A stretch of DNA of 64,000 nucleotides from Streptomyces sp. L2. Lineage in GTDB: Bacteria; Actinomycetota; Actinomycetes; Streptomycetales; Streptomycetaceae. Below the pieces are notes generated by a model that was not told the origin of the DNA, did not search any database, and saw only the letters and a program-made list of their open reading frames with translations. Both the position numbers and the translations under genes were made by a program. How positions within the stretch are numbered: position 1 is the stretch's first letter; each line of letters opens with the position of its first letter. Shown here piece by piece: positions 23,082-41,598 of the stretch. The stretch covers positions 6,758,001 to 6,822,000 of the forward strand of contig NZ_QBDT01000001.1 of NCBI RefSeq assembly GCF_004124325.1, in the 5' to 3' direction.

Positions 23082-23472
23082 CGCGAGGGGTTTTGCGCCC
23101 GTCCCGGCCGGGGCGGGCGCGGCGGCCGGGGACGGGGCGGGCGCGGCGGTCGGGGCCGGGACGGGAAGTTGGAGATTTCGTGTGCCGGTGCGCCGTTGTC
23201 GCGCACAAGTCGACCGTTCCGCGACCGGCGTATCGCATATGAGTGCGGATACCTGCGGTAACTCTCGCGGAATTTCCCGGATGTGAAATCGAGTCAATCG
23301 AACTTCTTGTTTCCTCTGCGGCGCGTGTGCGAAGGTGAGCCTCCCCACAGGAGGGGCAAAGGCCCGTACCGGTAAGGCCTGCTGCCCTGAAGGTATGCAC
23401 CAATCACACCCCGCTTTCCGACAGGACGCCCCTTTTCGCATGGCCTCCTGCGACGGGAAAGGAAATGGTTCC
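23082..23472. other. intergenic region upstream of the RICIN protein
   Basis: 391 bases without a supportable gene. 23109-23165 holds two imperfect copies of a G-rich GGGGCGGGCGCGGCGG block. An imperfect dyad GTATCGCA ... TGCGGATAC spans 23230-23252. No clear promoter hexamers were found. In-frame starts at 23335, 23395 and 23440 exist but lack ribosome-binding sites. Confidence 0.35.
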
Positions 23473-25586: not shown

Positions 25587-28500
25587 ATGACCTCCCCTGC
25601 GCGCGCCCACGACCTGATCCTGTGCCTCACCCCGTTCGGCCGGCCCGACTCCCGGCTCGCCGCCGCCGCGTGCGCCGCCGGCGGGTTCGCGGTCCTCGAC
25701 CTGGGCTGCGGCGACCGAAGATCCCGCGAGGAACTGGCCCGTTTGAGACACGCCGTCCGGGACCCCTTCGGTGTGCGGGTGGCGGGGCGCTGCGCCTTGC
25801 GCCCCGCCGACCTCGACGGTGCCCCCCACACGGTGGTCCTCGGACCCGACGCCCCCTGGACCGTCCCCGAAGTGGTGGGGGAGTACCGGGTGCTGGCCGA
25901 GGTCACGGACCTGGCGCAGGCCCGTGCGGCCCTGCGCGCGGGGGCTCACGGGCTGATCGCGCGCGGTGGCGAGAGCGGCGGCCTGGTCGGGGAGCACAGC
26001 ACCTTCGTCCTCCTCCAACAGCTCCTGGCGGAAAACGAGTTGGACCTGCCGGTCTGGGCCTGTGGAGGCATCGGGCCACGCACGGCGGCGGCGGCCGTGG
26101 CGGGCGGCGCGGCCGGAGTCGTCCTCGACAGCCAGCTGGCCCTGCTCAGCGAGTCCCGGGTCCCTGAGGCGACGCGCACGGTGCTGCGGTCCCTGGACGG
26201 TTCGGAGACGGTACGACTCGCCGGTCACCGTGTCCTGCGCCGTCGCGGACCGGACACGCCGCCCGAGCCCACCGATCCCGGTGCGGTCGCGGATTTACTG
26301 GCCACGGGCGAGCTGCTGCCCGTCGGCCAGGACGGATTCCTCGCAGCCCGGTTCGCCGAGTGGTGGGGCGATGCGCGGGGTGCCGTACGGGGCATGAGGG
26401 CCGCTGTCGAGGAGGCACTCACCGCACAGCCCGATGCCGCCGAACCGCCCGGCACCCCCGCGTCACCGGCGCAGAAGCCCGCGAAGGGGCACCGGAATTC
26501 GCGTCTCGCGGAGCCGCTCAGGACGGCGCCGGTCGCCGGGTCCGAACCGGTCACCGAGGCTGAACCGGTCACCGAGGCTGAACCGGTCACCGGGGCCGAG
26601 CCATGCGACACGGCCGAACCACCCAGCGCACTCGAACCCCCTGCCGTCCCAGCCCCCGGCGCTGCCCTGCGGCCCGGGTCGGTGATGAGTCGGGCGTTGG
26701 GGACGCGGTTGGGGGTCGCGCAGGGGCCGATGACCCGGGTCAGTGATCAGGCGGGGTTCGCCGCGGCCGTCGCCGAGGCCGGGGCGCTGCCCTTTCTCGC
26801 GCTGGCCCTCGCCGACGGTGAGCGGGCCCGGGCCATGCTCACGGAGGCCCGTGCCGTGCTCGACGGGCGGCCCTGGGGCGTGGGCGTCCTCGGATTCGCA
26901 CCCGAGGAGATCCGCGACGCCCAGGTGGAGGCCGTACGGGAACTCCGGCCCACGCACGCGATCATCGCGGGCGGACGCCCCGCGCAGGCCGCCGCGCTGG
27001 AGCGGGCCGGGATCAGTACGTATCTGCACGTCCCCTCGCCCGGGCTGCTGCGGCAGTTCCTGGCCGCCGGGGCGCGGAAGTTCGTGTTCGAGGGCTCCGA
27101 GTGCGGCGGGCACGTCGGACCACGGGCGTCCTTGCCCCTGTGGGAGGCCCAACTCGCCGTCCTGACGGACTTCTTGACCGAGGCCGAACCGGACACCGCC
27201 ACTGGACTGGAAATCTTCTTCGCCGGCGGTATTCACGACGAGCGGTCCGCGGCGATGGTCGCCGCCCTCGCCCATCCCCTGACCGCGCGGGGTGCCGCCG
27301 TCGGCCTCCTCATGGGCACCGCCTACCTGTTCACCGAGGAAGCCGTCGAGCACGGGGCCATCCAGCCCCTCTTCCAGCAGCAGGTGCTGACCGCCACCAC
27401 CACCGCGCTGCTGCGGACCGCACCCGGCCACGCCACCCGCTGCGTCCCCAGCGCCTTCACCGCCGACTACCGCGACCGGGAAGCCGCGTTACGCTCCGGC
27501 GACAGACCCGACCGCGAGGTGTGGGAGGCGCTGGAACGCCTCAACGTCGGCCGGCTGCGTGTCGCCAGCAAGGGCCTGGAGCGTGGCACGGACGGCCGGT
27601 TGACCACCGTCGATGAGGAACGCCAGCTCAGCGACGGAATGTTCATGGCCGGCGAGGTCGCCGTTTTGCGCTCGGTGACCACCACCCTCGCCGCCCTCCA
27701 CCACGCCGTCACCGACGGCGCCGCCGACTTCCTCGCCGCACGGGCCACGCGGCCGGCCGCCCGCCGGCACGCCGCGGGGGAGCGCGAGCCCGAGCCGCCC
27801 GCGCCGCTCGACATCGCGATCGTCGGCATGGCCTGCATGTTCCCCGAGGCCCCCGACCTCGCCACCTTCTGGGCACACGTCGTCGCCGGACGCGACGCAG
27901 TGACCGAGGTGCCGCCCGACCGCTGGGACGCCGCCGCGCACCACGGCAGCACCGCCTCCACCTGGGGCGGCTTCCTGCCCCGCATCCCCTTCGACCCGCT
28001 GCGCTACGGCATTCCGCCCGCCTCCCTCGGCTGCATCGAGCCGGTCCAGCTGCTGTCGCTGGAGGCCGCCCGCCTCGCCCTCGACGACGCCGGATACGGC
28101 AGCGGCGGGAGGGAGTTCGACCGCGAGCGGACCTCCGTGGTCTTCGGCGCCGAGGCGGGCAGCGACCTGTCCAACGCCGTCACCCTGCGCGCCGTCCTCC
28201 CCTCGTACTACGGCACGGTCCCCGACGCCCTCGACGAGCAACTGCCCCGGCTGACCGAGGACTCCTTCCCCGGCATGCTCGCCAACGTCATCTCCGGCCG
28301 GATCGCCAACCGCCTGGACCTGGGCGGCGCCAACTTCACCGTGGACGCCGCCTGCGCCTCCTCCCTCGCCGCGCTCGACGTCGGCTGCAAGGAACTCGTC
28401 ACCGGAACCAGCGACCTCGTGCTGTGCGGCGGTGCCGATCTGCACAACGGCATCAACGACTTCGTCCTGTTCTCCTCCGTGCACGCCCTCTCCCCGACCG

Positions 28501-31500
28501 GCCGCTCCCGCGCCTTCGACGCCTCCGCCGACGGCATCGCCCTGGGCGAGGGCGTGGCCTGCGTCGTCCTGAAGCGGCTCGCGGACGCCGAACGCGACGG
28601 CGACCGCGTGTACGGCGTGATCAAGGGCCTCGGCTCCTCCAGCGACGGCCGCTCTCTCGGGCTGACCGCACCCCGCCCCGAAGGACAGCGGGCCGCGCTG
28701 CTGCGGGCCTACCGCAACGCCGGAGTCTCGCCCGCCCAGGTCGGCCTGGTCGAGGCGCACGGCACCGGCACGGTCGTCGGCGACCGCACCGAACTCGCGG
28801 TGCTCACCGAGGTGTTCGGGGAGGCGGGCGCCGAACCCGGCCGCTGCGCCCTCGGCTCGGTCAAGTCGCAGATCGGGCACACCAAGTGCGCCGCCGGACT
28901 CGCGGGCCTGATCAAGACCACCCTCGCCCTGCACACCGGCATCACCCCGCCCACCCTGCACCTGGACCGCCCCAACCCCGCCTGGACGCAAGGTGACAGC
29001 CCCTTCGCCTTCCACACCCGGGCCCGGCCCTGGGCGTCACCCGCGCCCGAACGCCTCGCCGGGGTCAGCGCGTTCGGCTTCGGCGGAACCAACTTCCACG
29101 TGGTCCTCGCCGCGCACGACACCGCCGTACCGCCGCGCCAGACCCTGGACGCCTGGCCCGCCGAACTGTTCCTCTTCCGCGGCAAGGACGGGGCGGCCGC
29201 CCACCGGACCGTCGAGGAGATCCTCCGGGCCGCCGAATCCGGCACCCACGCCTGGCGGCTGCGCGACCTGGCCCTCGCCGCCGCCCACCGCGCGGACGCC
29301 TCCCACGATCCCGTGCGGGCGGCGGTCGTGGCCCGCGACGTGACCGAACTGACCGGCAAGCTGCGCCGCGTCCTCGCCGGGGAGAGAGACCCGGCGGAGG
29401 GAATCCATCTCGCAGCGGAGACCGCGCCCAGGGATACCGTGCCCGGGCACAGCGCGGCCGGGGACATCGCCCCCGGCGACACCGTCGCCGGGGCAGACCT
29501 CCACCGCGGCGACACCGCGCCCGGGAACACCGCGCCCGGGCACACCGCGCCCGGGAACACCGCGCCCGGGAACACCGCCCCCGGCGACACCGCCCCCGGG
29601 GCAGGCCTCCACCGTGGCGCCACTACGGCCGCCCCGCCCCCCGGCGGCAAGGTCGCCTTCCTCTTCCCCGGGCAGGGCAGCCAGCGCCCCGGGATGCTCG
29701 CCGACCTCCTGGTCACGCTGCCCGACCTGCGGCACTACCTCCACCTCGGCCGCGCGCACGCCGACACCGTGTACCCGCCGGCCGCCTTCGACGACACCAC
29801 CCGGGAACAGCGCCGGGCCGCCCTCACCGACACCCGCGCCGCGCAGCCCGCACTCGGCATCACCGGACTCGCCGCCCACGCCTTCCTCACCGCGGCCGGC
29901 GTCCGCCCGGACATGGCGGCCGGGCACAGCTACGGCGAACTGGTCGCCCTGAGCGCGGCCGGCGCCCTCGACCCCCAGGCCCTGCTCGACCTGAGCACCG
30001 AGCGGGCGGCGGCGATCCTCGCGGCGGCGGGCGACGACCCCGGCACCATGGCCGCCGTCGGAGCCGCGGCCGAGGCCGTGACGGACGTCCTGCGCGACGT
30101 CGGTGTACTCGGACCGGTGGTCGTCGCCAACGTCAACTCGCCCGAGCAGACCGTCATCTCGGGCCCCACGGAACAGGTCGCGACCGCTGTCCGGCTGTTG
30201 CGCGAGGCAGGGTTCGGGGCCCGGCGCATCCCCGTCGCCTGCGCCTTCCACAGCCCTGTCGTCGCCGGCGCGGCGAAACGGTTCGCCGGGGCACTCGCCA
30301 CCACGGCCGTCCGGACACCCGAGTTCCCCGTCTGGGCCAACCGCACGGCAGCCCCGTACCCGGCCGACCCCGACGGCGTGCGGGCCGAACTCGCCGCCCA
30401 GATCGGCGCGCCGGTCGCCTTCGCCGCCCAGATCGAGGCGATGTACGAGGCCGGTGCCCGCGTCTTCGTCGAGGCCGGCCCCGGACGGGTCCTCACCCGG
30501 CTCGTCGGACAGATCCTCGGTGACCGCCCGCACCGCACCGTCGCCGGCGAACCCGACGCCGACAGCGGACTCGCCGGCTGGCTCGACGCCCTCGCGCAAC
30601 TCGCCGTGGCAGGACAGCCCGTGCGCACCGACTGGCTGTTCCAGGGCCGCGACGCCGTCGACGCCCTGCGTACCCCGGCACCCGCACGGCCCGGCTGGAC
30701 GGTCGACGGACACCTCGTCCGCACCGCCGACGGCGCCCTTCTCCCCGGCGCCCTGGCACCGGCCCGACGCGTAGAGGAGACGACTGTGACGACGAACCAG
30801 CCGAACGGCACCCCGGCCGACCGGGACGCGCTGATCTCCGAATTCCTGCGCACCAGCCGCGAGATGATCGCCGCCCAGCGGGACGTGATGCTGACGTACT
30901 TCGGGGCGGTCCCGGGGACGGCGATTCCCGCTCCCGCCCCCAAGCCCGCCTTGCCACCGGTGCAACCCGTGGCCGAACAAGCACCGTTGCCCGAACCGGC
31001 CGCCTCGTCCGTTGCGGCAGCCGCGTCCGCCTCCTCCGCCCCGGCGGGAGCCGATGACGTGTCACGCGTGGTGCTGGACATCATCAGCGAGCGCACCGGC
31101 TACCCCGTCGACATGATCGAGCCCGACCTCGACCTGGAGGCCGACCTGAGCATCGACTCCATCAAGCGGGCCGAGATCGCCGGTGAACTCGCCCAGCGCC
31201 TCGGGATCGCCGGCGGCGCGGACCTCCTCGACGACACCGAGCTGGAGAACCTCGCCAAGGCCCGCACGGCGGCAGCGGTGACGGCCTGGCTGACAGAACG
31301 GATGAGCGGGGGAGCAGGGGCCGATCGGGACGAGGGCGGACCGCTGGACGGCGTGACCCCCGGCGGTCAGGGCGCCGCGTCGCCGGGCGGGCCGGCCGCG
31401 GGCCTCCGGGGCGGTTCCGCGTCAGACCCCGGGAAGCATAACCCTGGGGAACACAGCCCCCAGGACGCGCCCGACCGGACCGCCGGCGCCGCTCCGCCCG

Positions 31501-33014
31501 GGGCGGCCCCCGTGCGCTGCGAGCTGCGCCCGGTGCCGCTCCCTCCGCCAGACCCCACGGCCGACTCGGTCACCGTCCTTTCCGGCGGACGGTTCCTCCT
31601 CCTCGGCGACGCCGACGGCGCGGGCGACGGCGACGGCACCGCCGACGAGGTCACCGCCCGGCTCGTCGCCCACGGCGCCGACGCGGTGAGTGTCGACCAG
31701 GCGGCCCTGCTGACCGACGGGGGCGAGATCGCGGGCGCCGGGGAGATCACCGGCGTCCTGTACCTCGGTGCCCTGCCCGATCCGGGCCTGCCGGTGCTGC
31801 CGGAAGCCTTCCCCGTGCTGAAGGCGGCCCTCGCCCTGCGCCCGCGGCTGCTGCTCGCCGCCCGGCACGCCGACGGGGACGCGGCCCTGGGGTCGGCCGG
31901 GCTGCCGGGCCTGTTCCGCACCATCGCCCGCGAGTACCCGGACACCGTCGCCCGGCTGGTCACGGTGAGCGACCCGAGTCCGGCGGCCGTGGCCGACGCG
32001 CTGATCGCCGAGCTGCTCGCCCCGCAGCAGTCCGCCCCGGTCGTCCTGCGTCCGGCGCCCGGTGTCCGCCACGGACTGGAACTGGTGCCGGTGCCCCTGG
32101 GCCCGCTCGCCTCCACCGGTGCCGGCCCCGCCGGGGTCGGCGTGGCCGAGGCGGAGGCGCTCGGCCTGGACCGGGATTCCGTGGTTCTGCTCGTCGGCGG
32201 CGCCCGGGGCATCACCGCGCAGTGCGCCGTCGCACTCGCCGCCGCCTCCCGCTGCCGTATCGAGCTGGCCGGACGTACGCCCGCGCCCACCGCACCCGAG
32301 GACCCGGGGACGGCGGCCGCGCGTACTCCCGTCGAACTGCGCGCCGCCCTCGCCGCCGGCGGCACGCGGACACCGGCCGAGGTCAACCGGGACGCCGGAC
32401 TCCTCCTCGCGCAACGGGAGATCCGGGCCACCCTCGCCGAACTCACCGCACTCGGCAGCGAGGCCCGCTACCGCTGCGTGGACTTCCGGGACCGGGACGC
32501 CGCGCTCCAGGCCGTCAAGGAGATCCACGCCGAGCACGGCCGGCTCGACGGTGTCGTCTTCGCCGCCGGGGTCATCGAGGACCGGTTGATCGCCGAGAAG
32601 ACACCGGAGTCCTTCCTGCGCGTCTACGGCACCAAGACCACCGGCGCGGCGGCCCTGCTCGCCGCGCTGGAGGAACTGCCCGCCGGGCCCGCCTTCACCG
32701 TGCTGTTCGGCAGCGTGTCCGCCGTCCTCGGCAACCGGGGCCAGGCGGACTACGCCGCCGCCAACGACGCCCTGGAGACACTGGCCGCCGACTGGGCGGC
32801 CCGCACCGGGCACCGCGCGCTCACCGTCCACTGGGGACCGTGGGCACCCACCGGCACCCACACCGGCATGGTCAGCCCGGAACTCGGCCGCGAGTACGCC
32901 CGGCGCGGGGTGCGGCTCATCGACCCCGACGAGGGGACCGCCGCCCTGCTCAGGGAACTCGCCTGGGGTGATCCGTCGGCCCGTGCCGTCGTCTACACCG
33001 CGTCGGGCTGGTGA
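25587..33014 (+). CDS. iterative type I PKS subunit A (NMO-like, NMO-like, KS, AT, ACP, KR)
   Basis: 2475 residues from ATG 25587 (GGAG upstream). Domains: (1) residues 1-240, nitronate-monooxygenase-like, but GGESGGLVG has Leu133 where the second copy has His; (2) 368-705, NMO/PfaD-like flavin domain with QGPMTRVSD, ECGGHVGPR (His509) and FFAGGIHDERSA, a candidate enoyl reductase; (3) KS 739-1176 with Cys923 (VDAACASSL), His1058 and His1098; (4) AT 1355-1640, FPGQGSQ, Ser1448 in GHSYGE, and CAFHS, resembling malonyl-type ATs; (5) ACP 1826-1905, LEADLSIDSIKRAEI with Ser1858, the polyunsaturated-fatty-acid-synthase type; (6) KR 2199-2475 with GGARGIT, Ser2376 and Tyr2389. Repeats fill the linkers at residues 320-338 and 1309-1338. 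It should extend and reduce an acyl chain together with PKS-B. Confidence 0.9.
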   Translation: MTSPARAHDLILCLTPFGRPDSRLAAAACAAGGFAVLDLGCGDRRSREELARLRHAVRDPFGVRVAGRCALRPADLDGAPHTVVLGPDAPWTVPEVVGEYRVLAEVTDLAQARAALRAGAHGLIARGGESGGLVGEHSTFVLLQQLLAENELDLPVWACGGIGPRTAAAAVAGGAAGVVLDSQLALLSESRVPEATRTVLRSLDGSETVRLAGHRVLRRRGPDTPPEPTDPGAVADLLATGELLPVGQDGFLAARFAEWWGDARGAVRGMRAAVEEALTAQPDAAEPPGTPASPAQKPAKGHRNSRLAEPLRTAPVAGSEPVTEAEPVTEAEPVTGAEPCDTAEPPSALEPPAVPAPGAALRPGSVMSRALGTRLGVAQGPMTRVSDQAGFAAAVAEAGALPFLALALADGERARAMLTEARAVLDGRPWGVGVLGFAPEEIRDAQVEAVRELRPTHAIIAGGRPAQAAALERAGISTYLHVPSPGLLRQFLAAGARKFVFEGSECGGHVGPRASLPLWEAQLAVLTDFLTEAEPDTATGLEIFFAGGIHDERSAAMVAALAHPLTARGAAVGLLMGTAYLFTEEAVEHGAIQPLFQQQVLTATTTALLRTAPGHATRCVPSAFTADYRDREAALRSGDRPDREVWEALERLNVGRLRVASKGLERGTDGRLTTVDEERQLSDGMFMAGEVAVLRSVTTTLAALHHAVTDGAADFLAARATRPAARRHAAGEREPEPPAPLDIAIVGMACMFPEAPDLATFWAHVVAGRDAVTEVPPDRWDAAAHHGSTASTWGGFLPRIPFDPLRYGIPPASLGCIEPVQLLSLEAARLALDDAGYGSGGREFDRERTSVVFGAEAGSDLSNAVTLRAVLPSYYGTVPDALDEQLPRLTEDSFPGMLANVISGRIANRLDLGGANFTVDAACASSLAALDVGCKELVTGTSDLVLCGGADLHNGINDFVLFSSVHALSPTGRSRAFDASADGIALGEGVACVVLKRLADAERDGDRVYGVIKGLGSSSDGRSLGLTAPRPEGQRAALLRAYRNAGVSPAQVGLVEAHGTGTVVGDRTELAVLTEVFGEAGAEPGRCALGSVKSQIGHTKCAAGLAGLIKTTLALHTGITPPTLHLDRPNPAWTQGDSPFAFHTRARPWASPAPERLAGVSAFGFGGTNFHVVLAAHDTAVPPRQTLDAWPAELFLFRGKDGAAAHRTVEEILRAAESGTHAWRLRDLALAAAHRADASHDPVRAAVVARDVTELTGKLRRVLAGERDPAEGIHLAAETAPRDTVPGHSAAGDIAPGDTVAGADLHRGDTAPGNTAPGHTAPGNTAPGNTAPGDTAPGAGLHRGATTAAPPPGGKVAFLFPGQGSQRPGMLADLLVTLPDLRHYLHLGRAHADTVYPPAAFDDTTREQRRAALTDTRAAQPALGITGLAAHAFLTAAGVRPDMAAGHSYGELVALSAAGALDPQALLDLSTERAAAILAAAGDDPGTMAAVGAAAEAVTDVLRDVGVLGPVVVANVNSPEQTVISGPTEQVATAVRLLREAGFGARRIPVACAFHSPVVAGAAKRFAGALATTAVRTPEFPVWANRTAAPYPADPDGVRAELAAQIGAPVAFAAQIEAMYEAGARVFVEAGPGRVLTRLVGQILGDRPHRTVAGEPDADSGLAGWLDALAQLAVAGQPVRTDWLFQGRDAVDALRTPAPARPGWTVDGHLVRTADGALLPGALAPARRVEETTVTTNQPNGTPADRDALISEFLRTSREMIAAQRDVMLTYFGAVPGTAIPAPAPKPALPPVQPVAEQAPLPEPAASSVAAAASASSAPAGADDVSRVVLDIISERTGYPVDMIEPDLDLEADLSIDSIKRAEIAGELAQRLGIAGGADLLDDTELENLAKARTAAAVTAWLTERMSGGAGADRDEGGPLDGVTPGGQGAASPGGPAAGLRGGSASDPGKHNPGEHSPQDAPDRTAGAAPPGAAPVRCELRPVPLPPPDPTADSVTVLSGGRFLLLGDADGAGDGDGTADEVTARLVAHGADAVSVDQAALLTDGGEIAGAGEITGVLYLGALPDPGLPVLPEAFPVLKAALALRPRLLLAARHADGDAALGSAGLPGLFRTIAREYPDTVARLVTVSDPSPAAVADALIAELLAPQQSAPVVLRPAPGVRHGLELVPVPLGPLASTGAGPAGVGVAEAEALGLDRDSVVLLVGGARGITAQCAVALAAASRCRIELAGRTPAPTAPEDPGTAAARTPVELRAALAAGGTRTPAEVNRDAGLLLAQREIRATLAELTALGSEARYRCVDFRDRDAALQAVKEIHAEHGRLDGVVFAAGVIEDRLIAEKTPESFLRVYGTKTTGAAALLAALEELPAGPAFTVLFGSVSAVLGNRGQADYAAANDALETLAADWAARTGHRALTVHWGPWAPTGTHTGMVSPELGREYARRGVRLIDPDEGTAALLRELAWGDPSARAVVYTASGW
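26544..26597 (+). repeat. 18-bp in-frame tandem repeat in the PKS-A NMO linker
   Basis: Three units of GAACCGGTCACCGAGGCT (26544-26561, 26562-26579, 26580-26597, the last with changes), encoding EPVTEA repeats between the two NMO-like domains. Confidence 0.85.
29511..29600 (+). repeat. 15-bp in-frame tandem repeat in the PKS-A KS-AT linker
   Basis: Six units of RACACCGCGCCCGGG-type sequence, encoding (G/N/H)TAPG. The array is flanked by a longer imperfect duplication around 29476-29515 and 29581-29625 that encodes GADLHRG/GAGLHRG. Confidence 0.85.
30774..30788 (+). promoter_or_regulatory. in-frame internal ribosome-binding site and GTG within PKS-A
   Basis: GAGGAG (30774-30779), six bases, then GTG (30786-30788) in the PKS-A reading frame (residue 1734). 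It would begin VTTNQPNGTPADRDALI and give a 742-residue ACP-KR protein. The spacing is ideal, so it may be an active internal start or a relic of a gene fusion. Confidence 0.45.
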
Positions 33015-33015
33015 G

Positions 33016-36000
33016 ATGACCGGCCGTCACTCACCCGCCGCGCACGCCGCGGCGGTCGTCGGCATGGCGGTGCTGCTGCCCGGCGCCGCGGACCTCGACG
33101 TCTACTGGCGCAACCTCCGCGACGGCGTGGACGCGATCCGCGAGGTGCCCGAGGGGCGGTGGGACGCCGCCTACTACCGCCCCGGCTCCGCCACCGGGCC
33201 GGCCCTCGCCGACCAGGTGTACTGCCGGCGCGGCGGATTCGTGGACGGCCTGGCCGAGGTCGAGGTCACCCGGTACGGCATCATGCCCGCCTCGGTGCCC
33301 GGCACCGAGCCCGACCAGCTCATCGCCCTCGACGTGGCCGCCGCCGCGCTCGCCGACGCGGGCGGTGCCGATCGGCTCCCCGACCGCGACCGGATCGGCG
33401 TCGCCCTCGGCCGGGGCGGCTACCTCACCCCCGGCCTGGTCCGACTCGACCAGCGCGTGCGTACGGCAGGGCAACTCGTGCACACGCTCGGCGAGTTGCT
33501 GCCCGAACTGTCTCCTGCCCAACTGGACCGGGTGCGCCGGGCCTTCACCGACCGGCTCGGCGCGGACAGCCCCGAGTCCGCGATCGGCCTGGTCCCCAAC
33601 CTCGCCGCCTCACGGATCGCCAACCGCCTCGACCTGCGCGGCCCCGCCTTCACGGTGGACGCCGCCTGCGCCTCCTCACTGGTCGCCGTCGACCACGCGG
33701 TCGGCGAACTCGCCTCCGGACGCTGCGACATGATGCTGGCCGGCGGGGTCCACCACTGCCACGACATCACCCTGTGGAGCGTCTTCTCCCAGCTCCGCGC
33801 ACTCTCCCCGACCGAGCGCATCCGCCCCTTCCACCGCGACGCCGACGGCATCCTCATCGGTGAGGGCACCGGCGTCGTCGTACTGAAACGGCTCGCGGAC
33901 GCGGAACGGGACGGTGACCGCGTCTACGCGGTGATCCGGGGCACCGGCGTGGCCAGCGACGGCCGTACCGCCGGACTCGCCAGCCCCGATCCCGGTGGGC
34001 AGGCCCGTGCGGTGCGCCAGGCATGGCGGGCCGCCGGCCTCGATCCCACGGCGCCCGGCTCCCTCGGCCTGCTGGAGGCGCACGGCACCGCGACCCCGGC
34101 CGGTGACGGCGCAGAACTCGCCACCGTGCGCGAGGTGTTCGGGCCGGGGACGGTGAACGGTGACGGGCGTGCGGTCCTCGGCTCGGTGAAGTCGATGATC
34201 GGCCACACCATGCCGGCCGCCGGAGTGGCGGGTCTGGTCAAGGCCGCCCTCGCCCTCCACCACGGCACCCTGCTCCCGACCCTGCACTGCGACGACCCCC
34301 ACCCCGCCCTCGCCGCGACTCGTTTCCGCACGCTGGAGCGGGCCGAACCGTGGGAGACGGACCCCCGGCAACCGGTCCGGCGGGCCGCCGTGAACGCCTT
34401 CGGGTTCGGCGGGATCAACGCCCACGTGGTGCTGGAGGAGGCGCCGGGGGGCCGGCCGACGGTCCCTCTTCCCGGCCCAGTGACGCGCCCTCGGTCGGCA
34501 ATCGAAACCGAACCGGCTCGCCCAGCGGTCGATCCGGCGCGCCCGGCAGTCGATCCGGCCCGCCCGGCCGCCGATCACCTGCCGGTTCGACCGGGAACCG
34601 GTCCGATGCGACCGTCAGCCATGATGACGTCGGCTCGTACGGCAACCGGTCCGACACCAGTGCGACCGGCAGTCGTCACGACACCGGCCCATCGGATCGA
34701 GGTGCGGGTCACCGAGCCCGAGCGGGTGCTGCTGCTCGCCGCCGACGGCGCCGACCGGCTGGCGGAGCTGCTGGACCGGGACGACACGGCCGTCCTCGGC
34801 TCCGGCCTGGACCCCGCACGGGCGCACTCCGAGGCCGGTCCGGCCCGGCTCGGGATGGTCGGTCCCACCGCCAAGCGGCTGGCCCTCGCCCGGCGCGCGG
34901 TCGCCAGGGGGCGGGCCTGGCACGGCCGAAACGACCTGTGGTTCCGGCCCGCACCGCTGCTGGGGCAACGACGACCGGAAGGCAAGCTGGCCTTCCTCTT
35001 CCCCGGCCTGGAAGGCGACTTCACCCCCCGCGTCGACGACATCGCCGCCCACTTCCACTTGCCGCCTCTCCGGGGTGCCGGCGTCGACGCCGGGGACGTG
35101 GGCCGGCACGGATTCGGTGTCGTCGGCGCCGGCCGGCTCCTGGACACGGCGTTGCGCCGCATGGGGCTGGTCCCGGACGCGGTCGCCGGGCACAGCGTGG
35201 GGGAGTGGACGGCCATGGCGGTCGCCGGACTGTACTCGGGCGCTCAGGTCGACGCGTTCATGGACGGGTTCGACCCCGACACGGTGACCGTCCCGGGCCT
35301 CGCCTTCGCCGCCGTGGGCGCCGGTGCCGCACGCGTGCGCGCCGAACTCGACACGGCGTGGGCCGGTTCCGGGATCGTCCTCTCCCATGACAACGCACCG
35401 CACCAGGCGATGGTGTGCGGACCGGACGAGGCAGTCGAGGAGTTCGCCGGGCACTTCCGCGCCCAGGGCGTCCTCTGCCAGGTCCTGCCGTTCCGCTCGG
35501 GCTTCCACACCCCGATGCTCGAACCGTACCTGGAGCCCATCAAGGCCGCCGCCGGCCGCTTCCGGCTGCATCCGCCGACCGTGCCCGTCTGGTCGGGGAC
35601 CACGGCGGCGCCCTTCCCGGAGGCCGAATCGGCGGTACGGGAGCTGTTCGTACGGCACCTGCTGGAACCCGTGCGCTTCCGGCAGCTCACCGAGGCGCTG
35701 TACGCGGCCGGTCACCGCGCCTTCGTCCAGGCAGGACCCGGCCACCTGGCCTCCCTCGTCGACGACACGCTGGGGGACCGCGACCACCTGGCCGTCGCCG
35801 CGAACTCGCCGCACCGCGAGGGCATGGCCCAACTGCGGCGCGTGGCAACGGCACTGTGGACGGCGGGCGCCGCCGTGGCCCCGACCGTCCCCCACCCGAC
35901 GACCCCGAGCGTCCCCCACCCGACGCCCCCGACCCTCACTCAAGCGACGGCTCCGACCAACTTGCGGCCGACGGCCCCGACCGCTCCCCGCGCCGCCGCC

Positions 36001-38043
36001 TCCGGCCGGCCGCCGGTCCGCCTCGACCTCGACGGCGCCCTCGTCTCGCTCACCGGACCGGACCTCGACGCCCTCCGGGCCGAACTGCGCCCGAGCCGAC
36101 CGGCGGCGGGCCGGACAACGGGGCCCGGCGCATCCCCCCTCGACGACCTGGCCACCCGCATCCCGGCCGCCGCCGAGCTGACCGCACTCCTGCGGGAAAC
36201 CGCGGACACAGCGGTGCACCTACTCACGGCACGCCGGGCCCGCCTCCCAGCCACCGCCCAGGCCACCACGCCGCCGGCCCCGGCAGCCGCACCGCCCGCC
36301 CCCGCAGCGCAGCCCCCGGCGTCTCCCGGCACCCCCGCGCAGCCCCCGACCTCTAGCGCCACCTCCGCACACGCCCCGGCGTACCCCGCCACCCCCGCGC
36401 ACCCCCCGGCATCTCCCGCCCAGCCCCCCGCACCCCCCACCGCCGCCACCACCACCCAAACCCTGCGCATCTCCCCCCACTCCATGCCCCACCTCCTGGA
36501 CCACTGCTTCTTCCCGCAGCGTCGCGGATGGCCGGATGTAGACGACCGTTGGCCGGTCGTGCCCGCCACGACGATCATCCGGCACATGATGGAGGCGGCG
36601 GAGCGAGCGGCCCCGGGGCTGACGGCGACCGCCGTGCACGGGGCCCGGTTCGACCGCTGGCTGACCGCCACGCCCCCGGCCGACGTCCAGGTGACCGTCG
36701 CCCGAGACACCCCGGACCGGGCCACCGTGACCTTCGGTCCGACCGCTCGCGCCGTGGTCGAACTCGCCCCACGGCACCCGGACCCGCCCCCGCCCCACCT
36801 CGCCGACGGCCTCGGCCCCGAACGCACCCCCCGGCACAGCGCAGCCCAGCTCTACACCGACCGGTGGATGTTCCACGGCCCTGCCTACCAGGGCCTCACC
36901 GACCTGACCGCGATCGGCGACCGGCACATCCGGGGAGTGATCACCACCCCCGCTGCGCCCGGGGCCCTGCTGGACAACGTCGGCCAGCTCCTCGGCTACT
37001 GGATCATGTCGACCCGCATCGAGCGGACCGTCGTCTTCCCCGTGCAGATGCGCCGGATGCGCTTCCACGGCCCGCACCCGGCGACCGGCACCCGGGTCGG
37101 CTGCCTGATCCGGATCACCGAACTCACCGACACCCTCCTGGAGGCGGACGCCGAACTCACCGTCGGCGGCAGGGTGTGGGCGGTGATCAGCGGCTGGCAG
37201 GACCGCAGGTTCGACAACGACCCGCAGACCCGGCCCGCCGAACGCTTCCCGGAGCGCCACACCCTCTCCGAGGCCAGACCCGAAGGCTGGGCGCTGGTGC
37301 ACGAGCGCTGGCCCGACCTCGCCTCCCGCGAGCTGATCATGCGCAACACGCTGGGCGGTGCCGAACGCACCGAGTACGCCGGACGTCCGCCGCGCGGCCG
37401 CCGCCAGTGGCTGCTCGGCAGGATCGCCGTGAAGGACGCCGTACGGCACTGGCTCTGGAACCACGGCGAGGGACCGGTCTTCCCGGCGGAACTCCGGGTC
37501 GGCAACGACGAGTCGGGCCGGCCCCACGTCACCGGCGTGCACGGCCGCGTCCTGCCCCCGCTGGACGTCTCCCTCGCCCACCGCGCCGAGACGGGCGTGG
37601 CGATCGTACGGCCGCACAGCGCGCGGCCCGGACCCGGTATCGACGTCGAGGAGGTCACCCCACGCGACCCGGCGACCCTCGCCACCGCGCTCGCCCCGGA
37701 CGAACTCCGGCTGCTGCACGCCCGGTGCGCGTCCGGGACCGACCCGGAGGCCGTGTGGTTCACCCGCTTCTGGGCCGCGAAGGAAGCCGTCGCCAAGGCC
37801 GAGGGCACCGGATTCGACGGCAGCCCCAGGGACTTCACCGTCCTGCGGGCCGCGGCGGACGGCAGCCGGCTGCTCGTCGCGGGCCGCATGTATCCGGCCT
37901 ACACCGTGCACTGCGCGCCCGTGAGCTACCCGCCCGCCCTCCCGGCCCGCGACCTCGTGGTGGCCTGGACGACCGGCCCGGCGGACGTATCCGGAAGAGC
38001 GGACGTATCCGGAAGAGACGATGTGGAGGACCCCCACCGATGA
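33016..38043 (+). CDS. iterative type I PKS subunit B (KS, AT, DH, phosphopantetheinyl transferase)
   Basis: 1675 residues; ATG 33016 is one base after the PKS-A stop. Domains: KS 11-475 with intact Cys218 (VDAACASSL), His356 and His397, so it is not a chain-length-factor type; AT about 657-935 with Ser727 (GHSVGE) and FHTPM His831, but FPGLEGD replaces the usual FPGQGSQ; a long Pro/Thr/Ala linker; a hotdog dehydratase 1148-1400 with His1159/His1163 (MPHLLDHCFF), PVVPAT and Asp1320 (LLDNVGQLL); and a Sfp-type phosphopantetheinyl transferase 1468-1650 with GIDVEEV (Asp1543) and WAAKEAVAKAEG (Lys1589, Glu1590). The transferase could activate the ACPs of the operon itself. The tail holds a perfect 18-base duplication. 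No thioesterase domain is present. Confidence 0.9.
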   Translation: MTGRHSPAAHAAAVVGMAVLLPGAADLDVYWRNLRDGVDAIREVPEGRWDAAYYRPGSATGPALADQVYCRRGGFVDGLAEVEVTRYGIMPASVPGTEPDQLIALDVAAAALADAGGADRLPDRDRIGVALGRGGYLTPGLVRLDQRVRTAGQLVHTLGELLPELSPAQLDRVRRAFTDRLGADSPESAIGLVPNLAASRIANRLDLRGPAFTVDAACASSLVAVDHAVGELASGRCDMMLAGGVHHCHDITLWSVFSQLRALSPTERIRPFHRDADGILIGEGTGVVVLKRLADAERDGDRVYAVIRGTGVASDGRTAGLASPDPGGQARAVRQAWRAAGLDPTAPGSLGLLEAHGTATPAGDGAELATVREVFGPGTVNGDGRAVLGSVKSMIGHTMPAAGVAGLVKAALALHHGTLLPTLHCDDPHPALAATRFRTLERAEPWETDPRQPVRRAAVNAFGFGGINAHVVLEEAPGGRPTVPLPGPVTRPRSAIETEPARPAVDPARPAVDPARPAADHLPVRPGTGPMRPSAMMTSARTATGPTPVRPAVVTTPAHRIEVRVTEPERVLLLAADGADRLAELLDRDDTAVLGSGLDPARAHSEAGPARLGMVGPTAKRLALARRAVARGRAWHGRNDLWFRPAPLLGQRRPEGKLAFLFPGLEGDFTPRVDDIAAHFHLPPLRGAGVDAGDVGRHGFGVVGAGRLLDTALRRMGLVPDAVAGHSVGEWTAMAVAGLYSGAQVDAFMDGFDPDTVTVPGLAFAAVGAGAARVRAELDTAWAGSGIVLSHDNAPHQAMVCGPDEAVEEFAGHFRAQGVLCQVLPFRSGFHTPMLEPYLEPIKAAAGRFRLHPPTVPVWSGTTAAPFPEAESAVRELFVRHLLEPVRFRQLTEALYAAGHRAFVQAGPGHLASLVDDTLGDRDHLAVAANSPHREGMAQLRRVATALWTAGAAVAPTVPHPTTPSVPHPTPPTLTQATAPTNLRPTAPTAPRAAASGRPPVRLDLDGALVSLTGPDLDALRAELRPSRPAAGRTTGPGASPLDDLATRIPAAAELTALLRETADTAVHLLTARRARLPATAQATTPPAPAAAPPAPAAQPPASPGTPAQPPTSSATSAHAPAYPATPAHPPASPAQPPAPPTAATTTQTLRISPHSMPHLLDHCFFPQRRGWPDVDDRWPVVPATTIIRHMMEAAERAAPGLTATAVHGARFDRWLTATPPADVQVTVARDTPDRATVTFGPTARAVVELAPRHPDPPPPHLADGLGPERTPRHSAAQLYTDRWMFHGPAYQGLTDLTAIGDRHIRGVITTPAAPGALLDNVGQLLGYWIMSTRIERTVVFPVQMRRMRFHGPHPATGTRVGCLIRITELTDTLLEADAELTVGGRVWAVISGWQDRRFDNDPQTRPAERFPERHTLSEARPEGWALVHERWPDLASRELIMRNTLGGAERTEYAGRPPRGRRQWLLGRIAVKDAVRHWLWNHGEGPVFPAELRVGNDESGRPHVTGVHGRVLPPLDVSLAHRAETGVAIVRPHSARPGPGIDVEEVTPRDPATLATALAPDELRLLHARCASGTDPEAVWFTRFWAAKEAVAKAEGTGFDGSPRDFTVLRAAADGSRLLVAGRMYPAYTVHCAPVSYPPALPARDLVVAWTTGPADVSGRADVSGRDDVEDPHR
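37981..38016 (+). repeat. perfect 18-bp tandem duplication at the PKS-B 3' end
   Basis: GCGGACGTATCCGGAAGA occurs twice in direct succession (37981-37998 and 37999-38016), encoding ADVSGR twice, just before the stop. Confidence 0.9.
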
Positions 38044-38396
38044 ACCCCACCCGCCTGACCCCCGCGCAGCCCACCGCGGACACCGCGGACACGTCAGACA
38101 CCGCGGACACCGCGGCCACCGTGCTCGCCGACGTCACCGCCATGCTCCGCACCGTCCTGGAGGAGTACGGCGACGACGACGTGCTGATAGGGATGTCCAC
38201 CACCTTCAACCGCGACCTGGAGCTGGAGAGCATCGACCTCGTCACCCTCGCCGGCCTCCTGGAGGAGCGCTACGGGAGGCGGGTCAACCTCGCCGAGTTC
38301 CTGGCCGGGATGGAGTTCGACGAGATCATCGAGCTGACCGTGGGCCGGCTCGTCGAGTACGTGGTGTGGAGCCTGAAGGCGCCGGAGGCGGGCTGA
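38040..38396 (+). CDS. stand-alone acyl carrier protein
   Basis: 118 residues; ATG 38040 overlaps the PKS-B stop (ATGA), with GGAGG at 38025-38029. Residues 12-28 are a TADTADTSD repeat made of nine-base units. The carrier core is ADVTAMLRTVLEEYG, then FNRDLELESIDLVTLAGLLEE, with Ser64 as the phosphopantetheine site in an ESI instead of DSL context, then FDEIIELTVGRLVEYV. It probably carries a starter, or receives the finished acyl chain from the PKS for transfer. Confidence 0.88.
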   Translation: MNPTRLTPAQPTADTADTSDTADTAATVLADVTAMLRTVLEEYGDDDVLIGMSTTFNRDLELESIDLVTLAGLLEERYGRRVNLAEFLAGMEFDEIIELTVGRLVEYVVWSLKAPEAG

Positions 38397-38399
38397 GCC

Positions 38400-39206
38400 A
38401 TGGCCATGGTCGACACGGGCCGCATCCGGCTGCACGTCCAGCGCACGGGACCAGCCGACGGCCGCACCCCCCACGCCACCGTCGTCCTCGTCCACGGACT
38501 GCTCACCGACAGCCTGGCCAGCTACTACTTCACCGTCGCTCCGGCCTTCGCAGCCGCCGGCCTCGACGTGGTCATGTACGACCTGCGCGGACACGGCCGC
38601 AGCGAACGCCCGCGCGCGGGCTACACCCTGGACCACAACATCGACGACCTGGAAGCCCTCCTGGACCGGCTCGGCGTCAACGGTCCCGTCCACCTCGTCG
38701 GCAACTCCTACGGCGGCACGATCGCCTTCGGCTACGCGGCCCGCCACCCCGCGCGCGTGGCCGGGCTCACCCTGATCGAGTCCGAGCCGGCGACCACCGC
38801 CTGGGCGGGGAAACTGGGCGGCATCCTGCGCCGGGTACTGACCGAACTGGCCCACAACGAGCCGGACGTCATCGCCTGGATCACCGCCCACCGCGGCCAC
38901 AACACCGCCCGCCTGGCCAAGGGCGCGGCCCGGCTCGCCCGCGAGACCACCCTCGGCCGGGACATCCCCGCCAGCCGCGTGCTGACCGAGGACGCGATCA
39001 GGGCCGTACGCTGCCCGGTCCTCGGCGTGTACGGCGGCGACTCCGACCTGGTGGAACTGGCGCCCCGCATGGCGGCGCTGCTGACGGACTTCCGGCCGGT
39101 CGTGCTGCCGGGCCACGAGCACTCGGTGCTGGTGGAGGCCGCCGGGACGGTCGGCGGCCACATCCTGGACCTGATCCGCTCCGTCGAGGGAGCGGGGGCG
39201 CGGTGA
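38400..39206 (+). CDS. alpha/beta hydrolase
   Basis: 268 residues. VVLVHGLLTD is the oxyanion region. Ser103 in GNSYGG is the nucleophile, Asp214 or Asp216 in YGGDSDLVE is the acid, and His239/His241 are in LPGHEHSV. MYDLRGHGRS is typical of the family. It begins three bases after the ACP stop and overlaps the glycosyltransferase start. Since the PKSs lack a thioesterase domain, this protein is the natural candidate to release or transfer the acyl chain; that is inference. Confidence 0.88.
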   Translation: MAMVDTGRIRLHVQRTGPADGRTPHATVVLVHGLLTDSLASYYFTVAPAFAAAGLDVVMYDLRGHGRSERPRAGYTLDHNIDDLEALLDRLGVNGPVHLVGNSYGGTIAFGYAARHPARVAGLTLIESEPATTAWAGKLGGILRRVLTELAHNEPDVIAWITAHRGHNTARLAKGAARLARETTLGRDIPASRVLTEDAIRAVRCPVLGVYGGDSDLVELAPRMAALLTDFRPVVLPGHEHSVLVEAAGTVGGHILDLIRSVEGAGAR

Positions 39207-40387
39207 GCGGCTTTCTGTTCGTCGTCCCGCCGCTGGTCGGGCACATCAACCCGGCCGTGGGTGTCGCGGCCCGGCTCACCGCCGACGGGCACCGCGTCGC
39301 CTGGGCCTGCGCCGACCCCGCACTGGTACGGCGGCTCGCGGGCGCGGACGCCCACGTGTACGCCTGCGCCGGCCCGGTGCCGGGCGCCGAGGGAGCCGTA
39401 CGACCGCCGGACCTGCGGGGCGCCGAGGCGCTGCGGTTCCTGTGGGAGTGGTACCTGCTGCCGCTCGCCGACGCCATGGCACCCGGTGTCCGGGCGGCCG
39501 TCACGGAGTTCCGGCCCGACGTGGTCGTCGCCGACCAGCAGGCCTTCGCCGGCGCCCTGGTGGCCGAGCGCCTCGGCGTCCCCTGGGCGACTTCCGCCAC
39601 CACCTCGGCCGAGTTCACCGGCGCCTACGACGGGCTGCCCAAGGTCGCCGCCTGGCTGCGGAACCAACTGGCCGCCCTCCGCGCCCGGATCGGAACCCCG
39701 GCGGGCATCGCCGACCCCCGCTACTCACCCCATCTCCTGCTCGTCTTCAGCACCCCCGAACTCATCGGCCCCCAGGCGCCGTTGGGGGAGCGAATCCACT
39801 ACGTCGGACCGTCCCTCGCCGACCGCCCGGCCGGACCCGGCTTCCCGTGGGAGTGGCTGGACCCCGGCCGCGCCAAGGTCCTGGTGACCCTCGGCACCGC
39901 CAACGCCGACGCCGGCGGACGCTTCCTCGCCGAGTGCGGCACCGCGCTGCGGGAACGCGCCGACCGGGTGCAGACGGTGCTCGTCGACCCCACCGCACCC
40001 CCGGCTGCCGGCGGCACCGACAAGGACGTGCTCACCCTGCCGTCCGTGCCCCAACTGCCGCTGCTGGAACGGATGGACGCGGTCGTCTGCCATGCCGGCC
40101 ACAACACCGTGTGCGAGGCGCTCTGGCACGGCGTCCCGCTGGTCGTCGCCCCCATCCGCGACGACCAGCCCGTGGTGGCCGGCCAGGTCGTCGACGCCGG
40201 CGCGGGCCTCCGGGTCAGGTTCGGCCGGGTCACCGCGCCCCGCCTGGGCGCGACCCTCGACACCGTCCTGCACGACCCCGCCCATCGGGCCGCCGCCGCA
40301 CGCATCCGCACCGCCTTCCGGGCGGCGGGCGGCGCCCGCACGGCGGCGAACCACCTCGCACGACTGGCAGCGGCCACCCACGGGTGA
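39203..40387 (+). CDS. GT1-family glycosyltransferase (MGT/UGT type)
   Basis: 394 residues from GTG 39203, overlapping the hydrolase stop (GTGA). The N-terminal acceptor domain begins FLFVVPPLVGHINPAVGVA. The C-terminal donor domain has VLVTLGTANADAG, LPSVPQLPLLERMDAVVCHA, then GHNTVCEALWHGVPLVVAP and RDDQP, the nucleotide-sugar signature of macrolide and flavonoid glucosyltransferases. It should place a sugar from NDP-sugar on the polyketide or lipid product. There are no deoxysugar genes nearby, so a common sugar such as glucose is likely. Confidence 0.92.
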   Translation: MSGFLFVVPPLVGHINPAVGVAARLTADGHRVAWACADPALVRRLAGADAHVYACAGPVPGAEGAVRPPDLRGAEALRFLWEWYLLPLADAMAPGVRAAVTEFRPDVVVADQQAFAGALVAERLGVPWATSATTSAEFTGAYDGLPKVAAWLRNQLAALRARIGTPAGIADPRYSPHLLLVFSTPELIGPQAPLGERIHYVGPSLADRPAGPGFPWEWLDPGRAKVLVTLGTANADAGGRFLAECGTALRERADRVQTVLVDPTAPPAAGGTDKDVLTLPSVPQLPLLERMDAVVCHAGHNTVCEALWHGVPLVVAPIRDDQPVVAGQVVDAGAGLRVRFGRVTAPRLGATLDTVLHDPAHRAAAARIRTAFRAAGGARTAANHLARLAAATHG

Positions 40388-41598
40388 ACCGGCCCGACCC
40401 GCAAGCCGACGCCGACCGCAAGCCGCCGCCGGACCGCACGCCGCCGACGAGAAGCCCCGCAGAGCCGATGACGAGGAACCCCGCAGAGCCGATGACGGAC
40501 AACGGAGAGCCGATGACCGACCCCGAGAAGGACACCGACCGCGCCGACCACACCGCCCGGATCGCCGCCCTGCGCCCCGCCTACCAGGCCGACCTCGCCG
40601 CCGGGCCCGACCACTTCCTCGGCCCCCGGCGCACCACCTGCCCCTGGTGCTCCTCCGCACGGCTGACCACCCGCCTGCGCACCACCGACCTCCTCCAGCA
40701 CAAACCCGGCCGCTTCACCCTGGACCACTGCACGGACTGCGGCCACACCTTCCAGAATCCCCAACTGACAAGCGAGGGACTGGAGTTCTACTACCGCGAC
40801 TTCTACGACGGCCTGGGCGAACAGCGCATGAGCGGCACCTTCGGCGGACGGGCCGCGATGTACGTCGGCCGGGCCGAGGCGATGCTGCCGCACGACCCGT
40901 CACCGAAGATGTGGCTCGACGTCGGCACGGGCCACGGCCACTTCTGCGAGGCCGCCCGCACGGTCCTGCCCGGCACCGCGTTCGACGGGCTCGACTTCAC
41001 GGAGGGTGTCGATCTCGCCGCCCGCGAGGGCCGCGTCGAGCACGCCTACCGGGGTGCCTTCCCCGACCTGGCACCCGACCTCACGGCCCACTACGACGTG
41101 GTCAGCATGTTCCACTACCTGGAGCACAGCACCGACCCCGACCGGGAACTGAGGGCCGCCCGCGAGGTGGTCCGCCCCGGCGGGCACCTGCTGATCGAGG
41201 TACCGGACCCGGAGAGCCGGTACGCCCGCCTCCTCGGCCGCTGGTGGCTGCCCTGGCTGCAACCGCAGCACCTGCACTTCATGCCGGTGGCCAATCTGCG
41301 GCGCCGCCTCGCCGACCTCGGTTTCACGGTGGTCGCGGAGCAGCACGCCGAGCCGCACGACCCGGTCGACCTCCTCGCCGCCGTCTGGCTGGCCCTGGAC
41401 CACACCGCCCCGCGCGAGGACGCGCCCTGGCTGCCCGAGCCACCCGGCCGCCTGCGCCGGGCGCTGCGCACGGCCCTCCTCCTCGGCGGCGTGCCGGCCC
41501 TGGCCCTGGCCACCCTCCTCGACCGCCTCGCGGTCCGGCCCGTCTCCCACCGCCTCGGCCTGGCCAACGCCTACCGGCTGATCGCCCGCCGGATGTGA
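40384..41598 (+). CDS. zinc-ribbon class I SAM-dependent methyltransferase
   Basis: 404 residues if the GTGA overlap at 40384 is used. ATGs at 40468, 40492 and 40513 are alternatives; the last has GGAGAG close by and gives 361 residues. CPWC (Cys86, Cys89) and CTDC (Cys116, Cys119) form a zinc ribbon. FQNPQLTSEGLEFYYRDFYDG follows. The SAM site is WLDVGTGHGHFCEAA near residue 177. MFHYLEHSTDPDRELRAAREV and PGGHLLIEVPDPES continue the fold. A basic and hydrophobic C-terminal segment (RRALRTALLLGGVPALAL) could touch the membrane. Together with the glycosyltransferase it may methylate the sugar or the lipid headgroup. Confidence 0.88.
   Translation: MNRPDPQADADRKPPPDRTPPTRSPAEPMTRNPAEPMTDNGEPMTDPEKDTDRADHTARIAALRPAYQADLAAGPDHFLGPRRTTCPWCSSARLTTRLRTTDLLQHKPGRFTLDHCTDCGHTFQNPQLTSEGLEFYYRDFYDGLGEQRMSGTFGGRAAMYVGRAEAMLPHDPSPKMWLDVGTGHGHFCEAARTVLPGTAFDGLDFTEGVDLAAREGRVEHAYRGAFPDLAPDLTAHYDVVSMFHYLEHSTDPDRELRAAREVVRPGGHLLIEVPDPESRYARLLGRWWLPWLQPQHLHFMPVANLRRRLADLGFTVVAEQHAEPHDPVDLLAAVWLALDHTAPREDAPWLPEPPGRLRRALRTALLLGGVPALALATLLDRLAVRPVSHRLGLANAYRLIARRM
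40455..40520 (+). repeat. 24-bp repeats carrying three alternative start codons
   Basis: CCCCGCAGAGCCGATGACG occurs at 40455 and again at 40479, and a shorter copy ends at ATG 40513. Each copy places an in-frame ATG after a purine-rich stretch. Copies encode AEPMT. Confidence 0.8.

Follow-up and report, generated by a model that had tools for sequence, protein, structure and literature searches.

The operon described here lies at positions 25587-41598 of a 64-kb stretch of the Streptomyces sp. L2 genome (NCBI RefSeq assembly GCF_004124325.1, contig NZ_QBDT01000001.1, forward-strand positions 6,758,001 to 6,822,000), which is referred to below, at its full 64,000 nucleotides, as the window. 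Six densely spaced genes on the + strand encode two polyketide synthases (PKS-A and PKS-B), a free acyl carrier protein (ACP), an alpha/beta hydrolase, a GT1 glycosyltransferase (GT) and a methyltransferase (MT), in that order. The operon fits the description of a Type M secondary lipid synthase, a class that has already been catalogued, and its most complete explanation, which we regard as probable, is a Type M operon making a glycosylated very-long-chain lipid by means of a synthase similar to the Ars synthase of Azotobacter. Judged from the encoded proteins, the product would be a saturated or hydroxylated very-long-chain glycolipid rather than a polyunsaturated fatty acid (PUFA).

A sequence-only reading of this DNA had proposed one protein with the order NMO-NMO-ketosynthase (KS)-acyltransferase (AT)-ACP-ketoreductase (KR) and another with KS-AT-dehydratase (DH)-4'-phosphopantetheinyl transferase (PPTase), followed by the four smaller genes on the same strand, and this gene set and its domains were borne out. 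The operon had also been called self-sufficient, which is accurate in that an ACP, a PPTase and an enoyl reductase (ER) of its own are all encoded within it. The genes and domains are as follows.

25587..33014, + strand: PKS-A, 2475 aa, NMO1-NMO2(ER)-KS-AT-ACP-KR
25653..26213, + strand: NMO1, FabK-like domain, matching FabK chains
26682..27605, + strand: NMO2, FMN enoyl-reductase-like domain with a FabK-type match, GGHxG His kept
27810..28964, + strand: KS of PKS-A (KS-A), Cys-His-His intact, grouping with Ars KSs
29658..30566, + strand: AT of PKS-A, GHSxG and CAFH motifs
31068..31256, + strand: single ACP of PKS-A, DSIKR motif
32181..32846, + strand: KR of PKS-A, with Tyr, Asn and the last Asp of the LDD-like motif
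33016..38043, + strand: PKS-B, 1675 aa, KS-AT-DH-PPTase
33052..34290, + strand: KS of PKS-B (KS-B), catalytic residues intact
35152..35802, + strand: AT of PKS-B, GHSxG intact
36466..37212, + strand: DH, PKS-type double hotdog, undetected by Pfam
37636..37893, + strand: PPTase domain, detected by Pfam
38040..38396, + strand: free ACP, 118 aa, attachment Ser in 82/82 loci
38400..39206, + strand: alpha/beta hydrolase, GNSxG motif
39203..40387, + strand: GT1 glycosyltransferase, macrolide/YjiC type
40384..41598, + strand: SAM methyltransferase, two CxxC pairs (zinc-ribbon-like)

In the part of Shulse and Allen 2011 (PMC3098273) that was available, Type M synthases are assigned to Actinosynnema, three Frankia, Renibacterium and S. 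avermitilis, with an uncharacterised product; the corresponding part of PMC13291983 describes the R. salmoninarum arrangement as a fused pfaDA and a fused pfaBC with a PPTase, likewise uncharacterised, and names two Bacteroidota beside this organism. The window operon answers to this description of a fused pfaDA and a fused, PPTase-bearing pfaBC, and, matched by text description, it is set apart from Type M by no tested feature. Moreover, Type M is known from Frankia and Streptomyces, and the same operon was found here in Frankia strains other than the three of 2011. The build, which had been considered unusual, thus fits the 2011 text, and the order NMO-NMO-KS-AT-ACP-KR occurs in Ars (Type P) loci as well. 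The accompanying statement that the architecture has no characterised product agrees with the literature found: no product for the six-gene operon was encountered among the papers searched, which were mostly open-access and were screened by title and the start of the abstract.

A scan of genome contigs gave at least 580 confirmed relatives, the best 80 of which were taken further. Residue conservation was surveyed at 87 loci, comprising these 80, L081, L082, L099, L101-L103 and the window; some of them lie on incomplete contigs, on which KS and AT queries may pick up a paralogue instead, and L031 and L082 are identical over the compared stretch. Both NMO domains match FabK-type enoyl reductases. 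NMO2 has conserved the His of the GGHxG motif in 83/83 loci, and NMO1 keeps GGxxG and has lost this His in all 83 (Arg in 69, Pro in 11, and Ser, Lys and Leu in one each, the Leu being that of the window). Because the two Ars-type loci have the same pattern, the pairing of a degenerate with a putatively active reductase looks like an old feature common to Type M-like and Ars loci. Among the remaining domains of PKS-A, the KR retains its Tyr, Asn and the last Asp of the LDD-like motif (IED in the window) in 87/87 loci and the attachment Ser of the ACP is present in 84/84. The GHS and FH motifs of both ATs are conserved across the relatives, and since the CAFH motif of the PKS-A AT is one that we take to mark malonyl-type enzymes, an unbranched chain would be expected. 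In PKS-B, the DH has its His in 85/85 loci and its Asp and Gln in 83/83, and the PPTase, an assignment made by Pfam (a model comparison matched the DH part only), has its W, K and E in 77, 79 and 77 of 80 loci, respectively. Both KSs have conserved Cys and His, the Cys in 87/87 scored rows, and since the catalytic residues are intact in both, neither is a chain-length factor (CLF). With the catalytic residues of the ER, KSs, ATs, KR, DH and ACPs conserved, every step of a reductive cycle is therefore available to the synthase.

Several details that the sequence-only reading had singled out agree with these data, namely the lack of a CLF, the lack of a tandem ACP array (one ACP in the window PKS-A) and the fusion of the flavin domain to the front of PKS-A, ahead of the KS, with no separate PfaD. 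Its further suggestion that the DH is in the style of PUFA and heterocyst-glycolipid synthases was wrong or at least overstated, as the fold is the double hotdog of ordinary PKSs and a FabA-like DH/isomerase (DH/I) pair is absent. A Type L query pair (FabA by Pfam) matched two of four control loci and no DH region in the window, where the two PKSs were matched via the AT and linker only. Canonical PfaA also carries a DH, according to the available part of PMC13291983; the window DH was compared with DHs other than that one.

The kinship of the synthase was assessed with KS trees, from which the duplicate L090 was removed beforehand. The main tree contained 43 rows, E. coli FabF, four CLF rows and a Rhodobacteraceae row being left out; two modular KSs, one PfaC KS, one Azospirillum KS and FabF had been cut by hand. 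In this tree, the 14 KS-A rows grouped with the two Ars-type KSs (98/94), and this group then joined the PfaA-type rows (95/89), while the 13 KS-B rows formed a group of their own (100/99) that was placed weakly with PfaC KSs (82/58). A modular type I PKS, a placement that had been named beforehand as one that would count against a PUFA-synthase-like enzyme, was rejected for KS-A by the approximately unbiased test (p-AU 0.020, with two modular rows). For KS-A, KS-B and Ars together p-AU was 0.047, and for KS-A with KS-B it was 0.128. The earlier description of the enzyme as iterative and PUFA-synthase-like is consistent with the PfaA relationship in the tree and with TIGR02813 (PfaA) as the top NCBIfam model for both PKSs, at a score below its cut-off (865.4 against 1010.1 bits). 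At the level of whole proteins, PKS-A shares 49% identity over 971, 40% over 379 and 30% over 713 residues with a Beijerinckia ArsA-type protein, and PKS-B shares 27% over 561 residues with the Beijerinckia DH-PPTase protein.

Comparison with characterised systems places the window operon closest to Ars (Type P; Azotobacter and, by kinship, Beijerinckia), with which it shares NMO-NMO-KS-AT-ACP-KR, an NMO1 without the His, the KS group and a DH-PPTase on a separate protein. The two differ in that Beijerinckia has two ACPs, Ars lacks the second KS-AT and Ars synthases are partnered by type III PKSs, whereas the window operon has the ACP, hydrolase, GT and MT. Azotobacter ArsA supplies type III PKSs with C23-C25 acids (PMC4824345, as excerpted), and Type P synthases are credited with C22-26 chains in the available part of PMC3098273. 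Heterocyst glycolipid (Hgl, Type F) clusters are alike, by description, in their secondary lipid synthase logic, in having no DH/I and in a very long oxygenated chain joined to a sugar, the chain carrying a 1,3-diol-type end and an omega-1 group (PMC3098273 and PMC11804610, each in part); they differ, again by description, in a KS-CLF-AT on HglC and in being spread over many separate genes, whereas the window operon has no CLF. Canonical PUFA synthases (PfaABCDE) share the PfaA-like KS-AT-ACP-KR core and an NMO-type ER; they have four to six tandem ACPs, a KS-CLF pair and a FabA-like DH/I, in contrast to the window with its one ACP, no CLF, no DH/I and an ER fused in front.

Among the tailoring genes, the hydrolase, presumed to be a releasing or ester-forming enzyme, has a Ser nucleophile at 76 of 81 loci and a Cys at five (L007, L047, L049, L056 and L064). 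The catalytic His and DQ donor motif of the GT are conserved in the 80 covering rows (81 loci), and the solved structures closest to it include OleI and the UDP-glucosyltransferase YjiC, with CalG-type kin also present in the PDB. Close to its C-terminus, at residue 361, the window MT carries a single hydrophobic segment; the MT open frames of L119 and L123, going by the predicted start, take in a hydrophobic stretch at the N-terminus. A GT is present in 81 of the 87 loci, a hydrolase in 81 and an MT in 62, incomplete contigs included, and the glycosylated, possibly methylated lipid suggested earlier is probably the right kind of product.

The architecture recurs widely. As to the co-occurrence of PKS-A and PKS-B in genomes, which had been put forward as a check, the full order NMO1-NMO2-KS-AT-ACP-KR-KS-AT-DH-PPT-ACP-HYD-GT-MT was seen in 57/87 loci, and an order with two ACPs and without the MT in 12/87. 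A DH-PPTase probe was positive in 57 of 199 sampled genomes of the same genus, the window's genome counted, 12 at 42-45% and 45 at at least 55% identity; across the phylum, 9 of 396 sampled genomes, again including the window's own, were positive. Carriers include Frankia (L039, strain CpI1, whose contig stops within the PPTase, and L045, strain AgB1.9) and an Acidobacteriota locus (Sulfidibacter, L058) with synthase, ACP, hydrolase and GT in that order at 35-64% identity. The six-gene unit is also found on two linear Streptomyces megaplasmids of ~0.85 Mb (L081 and L082), with different annotated genes on either side and an IS3 transposase a little downstream.

Based on these data, the following route may be proposed. 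The ACPs would be primed by the PPTase of PKS-B, and PKS-A (ArsA-like) together with the DH of PKS-B (ArsD-like) would iteratively build an unbranched acyl chain of about C22-C28 from malonyl-CoA, with enoyl reduction by the flavin enzyme NMO2, which NMO1 would accompany as a non-catalytic partner. Processing could end after the KR in some cycles, leaving hydroxyls on the chain, and there would be no route to cis double bonds. The KS-AT of PKS-B may serve as an accessory extender or loader, its KS being apparently dispensable in evolution. The free ACP would pass the chain to the tailoring enzymes, where the GT1 enzyme would glucosylate one or more hydroxyls, the hydrolase would free the chain or transfer it to a sugar hydroxyl and the MT, where present, would O-methylate the product, probably on the sugar. 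Finally, the product would be moved across or into the membrane.

The last step is suggested by the neighbours of related operons, surveyed at 80 loci with PKS-B and GT, which include the window and its copy L097 and exclude L017, L032, L038, L039, L051 and L078; families present at six or more loci are reported, setting aside synteny among the nearest kin of the window. At nine loci without an MT (L011, L014, L045, which is from Frankia, L048, L061, L062, L063, L067 and L070), the next gene after the GT encodes a same-strand ABC exporter, at a distance ranging from an overlap of 3 bp to a gap of 186 bp; an ABC exporter occurs at 10/80 loci in total, and two of them were assigned ABC_membrane and ABC_tran by Pfam. 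In Amycolatopsis, four loci that also lack an MT encode an MFS-family protein 0.5-1.4 kb downstream of the GT; in three of them an SDR gene is interposed, and both family names are taken from one member each. At 17 Streptomyces loci with an MT, a PF03706 (LPG_synthase_TM) membrane protein, a possible glycolipid flippase, is encoded near the MT, mostly just after and facing it (two checked by Pfam; for example L003 18308-19240, - strand). Since exporter, MFS or PF03706 genes adjoin the operon in relatives, a membrane-bound or exported product is the simplest reading. Other families found were SDR (8 loci), MFS (7), GFO/IDH oxidoreductases (6), LacI-like regulators recognised by eye (8 and 7), an alpha/beta hydrolase behind the MT (6) and a secreted protein (6).

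A number of observations weigh against a glycosylated very-long-chain lipid from an Ars-like synthase. The main tree holds two Ars rows, two modular rows that both come from the window's genome and no Hgl rows, and a grouping of KS-A with PfaA to the exclusion of Ars was not rejected (p-AU 0.373). An earlier tree of 49 rows, with the CLFs and FabF included, showed long-branch joins, placed KS-A apart from Ars and had unsupported deep forks. The predicted chain length is drawn from a relative at only 30-50% identity, and Beijerinckia carries Type P yet is not known as a phenolic-lipid maker, as stated in the available part of PMC3098273. Hydroxylation of the chain is likewise a prediction, a fully saturated or enoyl product being the alternative, and UDP-glucose is the putative donor on the strength of the DQ motif and distant solved kin. 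As for export, there is no ABC gene behind the window GT, and tblastn found no PF03706 homologue in the window.

Other products can be weighed against the same data. A PUFA synthase feeding a glycolipid would account for PfaA being the best profile for both PKSs and for KSs in the PfaA/PfaC neighbourhood; the PfaA cut-off was missed, a PUFA synthase was ruled out on DH/I, CLF and ACP number, and we consider this very unlikely. An alkylresorcinol or alkylpyrone pathway as in Azotobacter, where the chains from the synthase would go to a type III PKS, has in its favour that ArsA/ArsD is the nearest characterised synthase, and can be given hardly any credence: two type III PKS queries matched 2 of 124 sequences, both of them the Ars loci (E 1e-10), in a search covering the locus stretches, with farther genes outside it, and no such partner was found at the relatives' loci beyond these two. 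The domain content of enediyne PKSs is similar to KS-AT-ACP-KR plus DH-PPTase, and the operon could accordingly be viewed as an enediyne-type iterative PKS split in two, yielding a glycosylated linear polyene or enediyne-like product, to which the CalG-type kin of the GT would be suited. This is improbable, as a polyene maker would have no need of the ER that is intact before the KS in 83/83 loci, and in the tree KS-A sides with Ars rather than with the S. cattleyicolor row, a putative enediyne PKS.

More specific, and put forward tentatively as a possibility that we rate below even chances, is the proposal that Type M operons are the missing genes of the fattiviracins, cycloviracins and their kin. 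The operon would then make glycolipid macrodilactones, in which two glucosylated trihydroxy very-long-chain acids are ester-joined head to tail via glucose; trihydroxy C22-C28 acids would arise by programmed dehydration skipping and be glucosylated by the GT1 enzyme, the hydrolase would dimerise them and so form the macrodilactone, and the MT would be an optional sugar O-methyltransferase distinguishing cycloviracin-like from fattiviracin-like products, with linked exporters and a related glycolipid in Frankia. According to the available part of PMC4365757, fattiviracins (Streptomyces) and cycloviracins (Kibdelosporangium) contain glucosylated trihydroxy fatty acids without methyl branches at C2, the fattiviracin chains are C22-28/C22-24 and sugar methylation is a mark of cycloviracins; these compounds are known here as metabolites only, and they agree with the chain length, the glucosylation and the optional methylation of a sugar that are predicted for the operon. 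The ATs are malonyl-type, the gene count is just sufficient and the MT is present in 62/87 loci, incomplete contigs included. The oxygens of cycloviracin lie at odd carbons (3, 17/19, 23/25), as expected of an acetate chain, and the Cys nucleophile of the five hydrolases may favour acyl transfer over hydrolysis. The diol-type end and omega-1 group of heterocyst glycolipids (PMC11804610, in part) offer a parallel, and Frankia CpI1, the strain of L039, is listed with an unelucidated glycolipid in the available part of PMC4365757. On the other side, a single GT would need to act on two kinds of hydroxyl, the methylation site on the product is putative, the methyl-branched chains of glucolipsin, a member of this class, are ones that this synthase would not give, and the cycloviracin lengths conflict within the review itself (C23/C26 in a table, C24/C33 in the text; PMC4365757, in part). 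No description of fattiviracin or cycloviracin biosynthetic genes was found in the literature searched.

The glycosylated very-long-chain lipid stays the preferred product, and variants of its synthase differ in how the domains are distributed. In L118 (994-11091), a single open frame of 3365 aa holds the whole synthase, in the order NMO-NMO-KS-AT-ACP-KR-AT-DH-PPT and thus lacking a second KS, and in L119 frames of 2475 and 1074 aa lack KS-B. These two loci paired (SH-aLRT 100) in a tree built on four PKS-A domains and joined a low-identity Streptomyces group (94), which nests within the two-KS loci (deeper forks 92, 82 and 98; a quick tree without bootstrap), and the absence of KS-B in both reads as a single loss. 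Both PKSs lie within one 4030-aa open frame in G142. Two DH-PPTase matches (G029:C11:133142-134740 and G128:C470:2368-3948) have one in-frame TGA each and are decayed copies or sequencing errors. A further secondary-lipid variant on a Rhodobacteraceae plasmid (L104, 7014-21633) has NMO-KS-AT-ACP-KR, a TauD dioxygenase, a methyltransferase and AT-DH-PPTase, and an S. globosus plasmid (L111, 6678-19792) has a free ACP, a thioesterase and a Pfa-like synthase adjoining SARP regulator and carboxylase genes.

Two TTA codons lie inside PKS-A, at window positions 26295 and 27489; a TTA occurs anywhere in the six genes at 26/56 Streptomyces loci, and control of the operon by bldA is a weak candidate, given that only part of the relatives have the codon. 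Scans at the operon found no promoter-like site and one terminator-like site against 2.4 expected from shuffles. Immediately 5' of PKS-A, a ricin-lectin-domain protein is encoded (23440-25395, + strand), with a relative in that spot at 12/80 loci. A 389-aa elongation factor Tu gene (18313-19482, + strand) lies ~6 kb upstream of the operon and is presumably an additional copy of the tuf3 kind, the main copy being outside the comparison.

Even though its class was defined in 2011 and it is carried by 57/199 sampled genomes of the same genus, this synthase is still without a product in the literature found. The Ars-side kinship of its catalytic half shifts the search toward saturated, hydroxylated, glucosylated very-long-chain lipids rather than polyunsaturates, and the one-KS relatives represent a compact synthase for reconstitution. 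If the macrodilactone proposal were true, it would tie an orphan gene family to antiviral metabolites of the same kinds of bacteria.

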